From: Actinomycetota bacterium
Lineage (GTDB): Bacteria; Actinomycetota; CADDZG01; WHSQ01
NCBI GenBank assembly: GCA_009380005.1
Contig: WHSQ01000016.1
Location: forward strand, 1 to 37,752
Direction of reading: 5' to 3'
DNA length: 37,752 nt
The translations under genes and the position numbers were made by a program. Positions 25,609 to 28,568 of the stretch are shown piece by piece. Each line of letters begins with the position of its first letter. The stretch's first letter is position 1. The notes under the pieces were generated by a model, which was given only the letters and a program-made list of their open reading frames with translations, was not told where the DNA came from and searched no databases.

Positions 25609-27213
25609 TCAGGTACCGGTCGCCTTCTCCTCTACTGGGTATCTGTCCCGCCACGCGTCGTAGCCTCCGGCGAGCGCTCTCGCATCCCAACCCCTGACCC
25701 TCAGCGTCAGCGCCGCACGGGCGCTCGTGGCCTCCGAGGGTCAGGTGCAGTAGAGGACGACTAGCTTCTTCTCATCTTGGGACTCCGCCCAACCAGCGAC
25801 ATCATCGGGCATCACCCGAAGGCTCCCGGGTATCGCCGCGGCATCCCGTTCGTACTGGGAACGGGTCCGCACATCCAGCACGACGGGTGGCTCCGATCCC
25901 TGCAACATGGCGTGCAGCTCGTCCACGCTAACCCTCTCGACGTCGTCGGGGTGCGCCACGAATAATCCACTCGCAGAGTTCTCGCGCTCCTCCACGAGCG
26001 TCTCCCCGGACACCTTGCCCGCGTACCAGCCCGTGATGGGAGTCGCCGTGGCCCCGTGCGCGAGGACCGACATCAACACGACCGCCCCAGTGGCGGCGAA
26101 CAGTACGTCGCTGTCCGGGAGATCCGTCAACACGACCAGCAGGGCAAAGAGAAGCGAATTGAGCCCCCGGGGGCCGAACCACGCGATGAAGGCTCGGGCA
26201 TGAGCACTGACCGCCACTCCACGCAGGCTCAATATGCCTCCCACGGCCAGAGGACGCGCGATGAAGATGGTTATCGCGGCGAGCGCCAAGCTTGGGATGA
26301 GGGGCAGGATCCGTAACGAATCCGACAACACGACGCCGAACATGACGAACGCGAGGAGCATCGCCATCTCTGCAGCGGCCTCACCGAACTCGAGGAAGCA
26401 GTCGCACAATTCCCTGTCGAGCACCGTGACGGCGAACCCTGCCGCGAAGGCTGCGAGGAAACCATCTCCGCCGACGCCGACGCCCGCGGCGTATGCGCCC
26501 AGGACGAGCCCGATCCCATAGAGCGCCTGATACTCCCGGCGGATGCCGAAACGCCGGTCGGCGCGCGCCATCAGTTCCGATCCAAGGGCTCCGACGATGA
26601 ATCCGGCGACGGGACCGAAGACGAGCAACTCGAGCGCGAAGAGGATCCAGTCACCGGTTCCCCCCACCTCGCCGTGTCCGACGGCCGTCAGGACCAGGAC
26701 GAGCGGCAGCACCACTATGTCGTTGGTTCCCGCTTCGACCTTGAGAGCTTGGCGCACCGAAGATGGGAGCCGCCGATCGCGGACCACGTCTCGCAGTACG
26801 ACCGGGTCGGTAGAGGCCAGCACCGCGCCCAGCAGGAGGGCGATGACGGGAGGAAGATCGAGTAGCAGTGTGCCGGCCCCCGCCACCAGGAGCACTATCA
26901 ACAGTGTTCCGGGACCCAGCGATAGCGCCGGCACCAGCCACTCCTTCCGCTCGCGTGCGAACTCCAGATTCACGGCGTCGAGGAACAGCACCAGAGCCAG
27001 GGTCACCGTTGCCACGGCCTCGAGAGCGGGCGAATGAAGTTCCAGATGCAGGATCTCGAGTCCGCGCGGCCCGAGCAACAGCCCAAGGCCGAGGAAGATC
27101 ATGGGGAAGGAAAGAGGCGCCCGTTCCACGATCCCGGCGGCGAGCGCCGAAAGTGTCAGCACGAGCGCCATCAGTGCGAAGGCGCCTAGAAGATCCACCG
27201 CCCCAGTATCCAT
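25609..27213 (-). CDS. CPA1-like cation/proton antiporter fused to a rhodanese domain, with in-frame TGA (candidate selenocysteine 491)
   Basis: Residues 1-400 are a 12-13 helix cation/proton antiporter: SFPMIFLGLGLLLGPRGLEI, VLASTDPVVLRDVVRDRRLP and VEAGTNDIVVLPLVLVLTAV carry the DP and ND residues of the CPA1 ion site. Residues about 425-533 are a cytosolic rhodanese domain (VSVDELHAMLQ, PPVVLDVRTRSQYERD, KLVVLYCT). A TGA at 25741-25743 follows YCT. Reading on in the same frame gives PSEATSARAALTLRVRGWDA, RALAGGYDAWRDRYPVE, the intact second half of a rhodanese, ending at the TGA 25609-25611. Related domains have YCTCPNEATSAR, so the TGA replaces the second Cys of a CxC loop; the first Cys remains. 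A SECIS-like hairpin follows. The alternative is a nonsense mutation with a truncated 490-residue product. No good ribosome site precedes the ATG. Confidence 0.75.
25695..25743 (-). promoter_or_regulatory. Candidate bacterial SECIS element of the antiporter-rhodanese gene
   Basis: On the minus strand, 15 bases after the TGA, AGCGCC (25725-25720) pairs perfectly with GGCGCT (25714-25709) around the pentaloop CGTGC (25719-25715). Between the TGA and the loop there are 21 bases, within the known 16-37 range, and the loop has G at its second position as bacterial SECIS loops usually do. An outer 8-base inverted repeat, TGACCCTC (which includes the TGA itself) with GAGGGTCA (25702-25695), closes the structure. 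The loop is identical to that of the second candidate at 28085-28103. Confidence 0.65.
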
Positions 27214-27614: not shown

Positions 27615-28328
27615 TCAGTGCTCGTGAGCCGCGTGCAGCTCGTGGAGCAGCCGTTCGGCATCGGAGCGCCGCATGATGCCGATGAGCTCCCCTCCGGGCG
27701 TAGTGACCAGGATCTCCGCCACGTCTCGAGCCTGCATCCTGGCCACGAGGTCGGGTAACGGTTCGTCGTAGCGAACGGACGTGGGACCCGGCTCCATGAC
27801 CTCGTCGGCCCGAGCACCCGTACCCGCCGAGAGATCACTCTCCTTCAGCCTGCCGACCACGATCCGGTCGTCGGAGACGACCACGCACGACCCGAAGGCG
27901 GCCACGTCGGGCCGTCCGGCAACCTCGCTCACGAGGTCTTGAGGCGAACACGTCGGGAGGTTCGGATCGGCCACCCGGCCCGGGCGTGGAACCGACGCGT
28001 AGTCACCCTCGGTGGGGAGCCCGGTCGCGGTCCAGTCGCTCTTGCCGGCGGCGTAGTCGTAGACCTCCTCGAAGCCCATCATCTCGAGCCGGCACGCGGC
28101 TCGCGGACTCATGTCTCAGAGGAAATCGTTGCAGTAGACGATGACCGGAGCCCCTCGATCGAGCCCGGCCACGCCCTCCACCGTGAGCTCTTTCAGCGGG
28201 ATGTTGACGGCACCGCTGAGATGTTCCTGCTCGTAGTCCTCGCGAGGCAATACCTCGACGAGTTGCGCGTTCCCACTCGAGACGAACGCCTGCACCTCTT
28301 GCCGGGTGAGGGACTTGACGGGACTCAC
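27615..28328 (-). CDS. Rhodanese-CBS protein with in-frame TGA (candidate selenocysteine 71)
   Basis: From the GTG 28326-28328 the first 70 codons encode half a rhodanese domain (LTRQEVQAFVSSGNAQLVEV, LPREDYEQEHLSGAVNIPLK, APVIVYCNDFL). A TGA at 28116-28118 follows. The same frame continues with DMSPRAACRLEMMGFEEVYD and YAAGKSDWTATGLPTEG, the rest of the domain, then a CBS pair at about 125-237 (CVVVSDDRIVVGRLKESDLS, ADEVMEPGPTSVRYDEPLPD, EILVTTPGGELIGIMRRSDA), ending at 27615. Relatives have YC-x4-C-D-x-SPRAA, so the TGA stands where they have Cys. The start is three bases after the previous stop, so translation is probably coupled. Read without selenocysteine it would be two truncated pieces, the second lacking a good ribosome site. 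Confidence 0.78.
28085..28118 (-). promoter_or_regulatory. Candidate bacterial SECIS element of the rhodanese-CBS gene
   Basis: On the minus strand, 12 bases after the TGA (28118-28116), CGAGCCG (28103-28097) pairs perfectly over 7 bp with CGGCTCG (28091-28085) around the pentaloop CGTGC (28096-28092). The loop begins after 19 bases, within the range known for bacterial SECIS elements, and has the expected G at loop position two. The loop is identical to that of the antiporter-rhodanese candidate, while the stem sequences differ. Confidence 0.65.
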
Positions 28329-28331
28329 CGA

Positions 28332-28568
28332 TCAGGTCCTGTCCTGAAGGTCCTTCTCCCCGGACTGGCGGGCGCAGTGAGCGCAACAATACATAGCACC
28401 ATCGGACTCCAGCCCGTGCCCGATGATCTTGCATCCACAGTGAGTGCACTCCGGAGCCACGACGTGTATCGCGCATTCGAAGCTGTCGAACTGACGGGTC
28501 TGACCGTCAGAGGTGGTGATCTGGAACGACTTGTCGTAGTCGTTGCCACAGTGGTCGCACCGAGCCAT
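28332..28568 (-). CDS. Cys-rich zinc-ribbon/metallothionein-like small protein
   Basis: The 78-residue product begins MARCDHCGNDYDKSFQIT and continues with FDSFECAIHVVAPECTHCGC, KIIGHGLESDGAMYCCAHCA. Nine Cys and several His form CxxC pairs (CDHC, CTHCGC, CCAHC), consistent with one or two zinc sites. Similar actinobacterial proteins are annotated as hypothetical or prokaryotic-metallothionein-like. A ribosome site (AAGGAG) precedes the ATG. Its TGA stop is in the same frame as, and three bases before, the rhodanese-CBS GTG, so the two are probably translated together. Confidence 0.85.
   Translation of the reverse strand: MARCDHCGNDYDKSFQITTSDGQTRQFDSFECAIHVVAPECTHCGCKIIGHGLESDGAMYCCAHCARQSGEKDLQDRT

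Follow-up and report, generated by a model that had tools for sequence, protein, structure and literature searches.

Rhodanese domains that carry selenocysteine (Sec) have been described in several forms. A 2026 review counts 119 prokaryotic selenoprotein families and subfamilies, and its rhodanese forms have the motifs UxxS, UxxG (two), CxU and UxxxxU, the last of these being TsoB; the UxxS and UxxG motifs belong to the rhodanese-like forms 1, 2 and 4 (PMC13188914). TsoB (NF045694) resembles a rhodanese/DsbD fusion, spans 572 profile positions and has two Sec in U-x4-U spacing (motif: PMC13188914). Form 3, the rhodanese-related (seleno)protein NF041203 (LYCAU, CxU), has a Cys ahead of its Sec. 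In forms 1, 2 and 4 (PF00581), Sec probably stands in place of the catalytic Cys.

How does the rhodanese-CBS protein described here compare with these? With forms 1, 2 and 4 it shares a rhodanese fold bearing Sec; where Sec in them probably replaces the catalytic Cys, it keeps the Cys (Cys66) and places Sec five residues further on. With TsoB it shares a Sec-bearing rhodanese domain and the spacing of the motif, here C-x4-U, but it has one Sec and a pair of CBS domains instead of two Sec and the DsbD-like fusion. The match to the TsoB profile is weak (33 bits, E 1.8e-8, against a cut-off of 805), which places the protein outside that family. It also falls outside NF041203 (24 bits, cut-off 115), in which Sec lies two residues past the Cys, not five, and which lacks CBS domains.

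The window, by which we mean the whole stretch of 37,752 nucleotides analysed from an Actinomycetota bacterium, yields two pieces at this locus under ordinary gene calling, 28328–28116 and 28112–27615 on the minus strand. With the TGA between them read as Sec, they form a single uninterrupted frame of 237 codons (27615–28328, minus strand), from a GTG start (28328–28326) to a terminal TGA (27617–27615). There is just one internal TGA, at 28116–28118, and it would specify Sec at residue 71. The minus-strand codons around it are GTC TAC TGC AAC GAT TTC CTC TGA GAC ATG AGT CCG CGA GCC GCG, in which TGC (28131–28133) encodes Cys66, at the site of the rhodanese catalytic cysteine. The Pfam profile PF00581 extends across the TGA (48.4 bits, cut-off 22.2, E 1.4e-12), and profile, AlphaFold2 and fold search all support a rhodanese domain at residues 9–101 (28026–28304). 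Behind it lies a tandem CBS pair, at approximate limits of residues 124–230 (27639–27959). The second repeat is matched by PF00571 (30.3 bits, E 5.5e-7), the first repeat is recognised in the Nonomuraea homologue, and the pair is matched by fold search. A preliminary description of this DNA had taken the two short frames for one gene, a rhodanese followed by a CBS pair; the read-through frame and the Pfam domains bear this out, and its coordinates and its numbering of residue 71 were correct.

How widely is the internal TGA shared? When the genomes of the source's order were searched with the protein, we obtained full-length relatives at 42–59% identity, almost every one of which has a single internal TGA. 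Across the phylum, full-length relatives at 40–59% identity have TGA at the same codon. Counting places at E <= 1e-30 in the class search and in a sample of 397 genomes of Actinomycetota, we found the internal TGA in 48 of 49 places, distributed over 40 genomes and 35 genera. Most of these sequences come from metagenome-like draft assemblies. A tblastn search of plasmid records added the named species Rubrobacter marinus, Pseudonocardia autotrophica and P. broussonetiae, all with the TGA form. The TGA aligns to an identical column in 38 distinct sequences, within the motif YC-x4-U-D-[MLI]-S-[PA]-R-A-A, and Cys66 is invariant in the alignment. Judged from these 38 homologous sequences, such sharing of one codon lies far beyond chance. 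Searches of phage records with the protein gave no match, and a scan of a contig database with the single protein returned only a distant gammaproteobacterial rhodanese.

Which residues replace Sec where the codon differs? The full-length relative in Nonomuraea gerenzanensis, also found by tblastn of plasmid records, has TGC (Cys) at this column, within YCHDWLCDLSPRAA. One paralogue (locus L029) has Ser, and the genome that contains it (G001) has a Sec form as well. Single-domain rhodaneses with the same lengthened active-site loop have Cys where the rhodanese-CBS protein has Sec (YCRGPYC, YCSNLAC); they are 30–38% identical to it over a stretch without the CBS pair. The preliminary description had stated that relatives have Cys at the TGA position, and had looked to an exchange of Cys and TGA among homologues as a check. 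The exchange is found in N. gerenzanensis, and the statement holds there and for the single-domain YC-x4-C proteins; among the rhodanese-CBS relatives, however, Sec strongly predominates over Cys.

Might there nevertheless be two genes here, a short rhodanese that stops at the TGA, followed by a CBS protein that restarts at the ATG two codons on? RefSeq shows this split in P. autotrophica and P. broussonetiae and has the CBS part only in R. marinus, and an ATG stands at this point in 25 of the 38 sequences. A separate CBS start is disfavoured because nine of the 38 relatives have CTC (8) or ATC (1) at that codon. This bears on the separately translated CBS product of 165 residues that the preliminary description had named as evidence against a single gene: its start is not conserved. 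In addition, a cut at the TGA would strip the rhodanese of the remainder of its active-site loop and of the next helix, and where relatives encode Cys or Ser in place of Sec, the gene is a single frame. A mere terminal stop would also drift to TAA or TAG, and the aligned sequences show neither at this column. We consider the existence of two genes very improbable.

Is the source genome equipped to read UGA as Sec? It contains selA (538.8 bits) and selB (340.7 bits), both above cut-off and on a shared contig, a tRNA-Sec with a TCA anticodon (84.5 bits), and selD (386.4 bits) at 44690–45610 on the window's own contig (C77). The Sec pathway, the absence of which would have spoken against the proposal, is present. 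The same genome also encodes, on another contig (C155, locus L122), a formate-dehydrogenase-like protein with the known VUHGP motif at an in-frame TGA, in a gene that also has a similar SECIS-like hairpin. In the phylum sample, selA was found in 33 of 40 carriers of the gene and in 196 of 357 non-carriers (Fisher p = 0.0006). Of the seven selA-negative carriers, one has a full-length selB, another has selA and selB fragments on one contig, and several of the others are incomplete assemblies; a clear selA or selB was not found in four or five carriers, some of them incomplete. As to location, selD lies some 16 kb from the rhodanese-CBS gene on the same contig, and in one other genome (G012) selA is 2.8 kb from it.

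A SECIS-like hairpin, absent from the preliminary description, begins 12 nt past the UGA (28085–28103, minus strand). Counted from the U of UGA it occupies nt 16–34, with nt 16–22 pairing with nt 28–34 in a stem of 7 bp. The loop contains G24-U25-G26, unchanged in 38 of 38 sequences. Across 30 distinct sequences the stem pairs in 99% of cells, against 18–53% when the partner is slid by one to three columns. One compensatory pair, C-G to U-A, occurs in six sequences, in which a silent GCC to GCT change is matched by CGG to CAG. The covariation score was reached by none of 500 shuffles, in a test that ignores relatedness and with a score that rests on one base pair and possibly one or two events. 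Codon choice is constrained as well: GAC72, GCG78, CGG80 and CTC81 are fixed wherever the residue is kept, despite other codons being open, and synonymous codon identity, 0.50 gene-wide, rises to its maximum of 0.85 at residues 77–82. The folding energy of the single sequence is unexceptional for such GC-rich DNA (z –1.1); since this measure is uninformative in DNA of that composition, the case for the hairpin is built on conservation and covariation. The Ser paralogue is unable to form the hairpin; in the Nonomuraea Cys form the stem is preserved and the GUG loop is not. On this comparative evidence the element fits a bacterial SECIS.

Could the UGA be translated as some other amino acid, through read-through by a near-cognate tRNA or in a reassigned code? 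Bacteria do read through some UGA codons. Here, however, it is Cys and Ser that exchange with the UGA-encoded residue, and not Trp; the genome has the Sec machinery, and the hairpin is kept with the TGA and lost in the Ser paralogue. Moreover, because the rhodanese-CBS gene and many others terminate with TGA, there is no general reassignment of the codon. The chance that another amino acid is inserted seems to us slight. A further reading is that a Cys codon has been turned into a stop, by nonsense mutation in a pseudogene or through sequencing error. The TGA is one base away from TGC or TGT, but this reading is refuted by conservation: 38 distinct sequences share the identical TGA, they come from many genera, and RefSeq plasmids that are described as complete are among them. 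Purifying selection acts on both flanks of the UGA, where third-position changes exceed those at the first and second positions.

We conclude from the comparison of sequences that residue 71 is almost certainly selenocysteine, since the UGA and the hairpin are conserved, the Sec machinery is present, Cys and Ser exchange with it and the whole is one coding frame; the support is about as strong as sequence data can provide. Very probably, the locus is one gene for one selenoprotein, in which the UGA at 28116–28118 is decoded by SelB and tRNA-Sec under the direction of the hairpin, giving a rhodanese and CBS-pair protein of 237 residues.

What might such a protein do? AlphaFold2, given an alignment of 35 sequences, predicts the whole read-through protein with a mean pLDDT of 93. 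Foldseek against the PDB matches it to the rhodanese-like 3nhv and to CBS pairs, among them 2ef7, OpuCA and AcuB. In the model Cys66 occupies the site of the rhodanese nucleophile, at the end of a strand, and Sec71 lies five residues later in the lengthened active-site loop. Cys66 would act as the sulfur-carrying nucleophile, picking up sulfane sulfur or attacking a disulfide. Sec71 would form a redox pair with it, and a selenenylsulfide between the two would speed release. The pair might accept or release sulfane sulfur, or reduce a thiol, metal or metalloid substrate, while the CBS pair probably tunes activity to adenine nucleotides. This scheme of sulfur and thiol-redox chemistry draws on what is known of rhodaneses and selenoenzymes; we regard it as plausible, at somewhat less than an even chance.

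Gene context adds little to this picture. No gene neighbourhood was conserved across the 22 regions compared; only a few of them have MerR, ArsR, MerB or a small protein of thioredoxin-like type upstream of the gene. Such neighbours hint at a role in thiol, metal or metalloid stress, a hint that is weak because the neighbourhood is otherwise not conserved. On a plasmid of P. autotrophica (L099:3487–5669), MerR, a MerB-like alkylmercury lyase and a small thioredoxin-like protein lie directly upstream of the rhodanese-CBS gene. In the window itself, the upstream neighbour (28332–28566, minus strand) encodes a small cysteine-rich protein, CDHCGN...CTHCGCKIIGHG...CCAHCAR, for which searches of Pfam and NCBIfam profiles gave no match.

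Is the protein new? The 2026 inventory of selenoproteins makes no mention of a CBS fusion (PMC13188914), the open-licence literature yielded no joint mention of selenoprotein, rhodanese and CBS domain, and every NCBIfam match to the protein is far below cut-off. Because of these three results, with the literature taken as that under open licence, the rhodanese-CBS protein is a new selenoprotein family within a known kind. Automatic annotation cuts the gene at the UGA, as the RefSeq entries illustrate, so that the protein is halved in databases or missing from them. A wider proposal, which we put forward tentatively as less likely than not, is that of an unreported, phylum-wide actinobacterial family of C-x4-U rhodanese-CBS proteins whose gene is often annotated wrongly as two and is in some cases carried on a plasmid. 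In these proteins a CBS pair that senses adenine nucleotides would control a Cys–Sec sulfur-transfer or redox centre and so tie a selenium enzyme to the energy state. If the Sec reading is right, this selenoprotein family occurs in many actinobacterial genera, named species included, and has Sec as its usual residue, with Cys as the exception. It would then offer Cys, Sec and Ser forms from nature, with which one could ask what selenium gives to rhodanese chemistry, and a case in which Sec may be under nucleotide control through CBS domains.

A second candidate lies on the same strand. This gene (25609–27213, minus strand) encodes a Na+/H+ antiporter with a C-terminal rhodanese domain and has an in-frame UGA at 25741–25743 (LYCTUP). 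Its rhodanese domain scores 87.9 bits against NF041203 (LYCAU; cut-off 115), and it looks like a new fusion of that known Sec-rhodanese domain. The preliminary description had put the two TGAs about 2.4 kb apart and judged a chance origin of both very unlikely. The measured distance is 2,375 bp, and the judgement stands: beside the 38 sequences that share the rhodanese-CBS TGA, the antiporter-rhodanese TGA occurs at the same codon in five of the five class sequences compared, at 58–61% identity.
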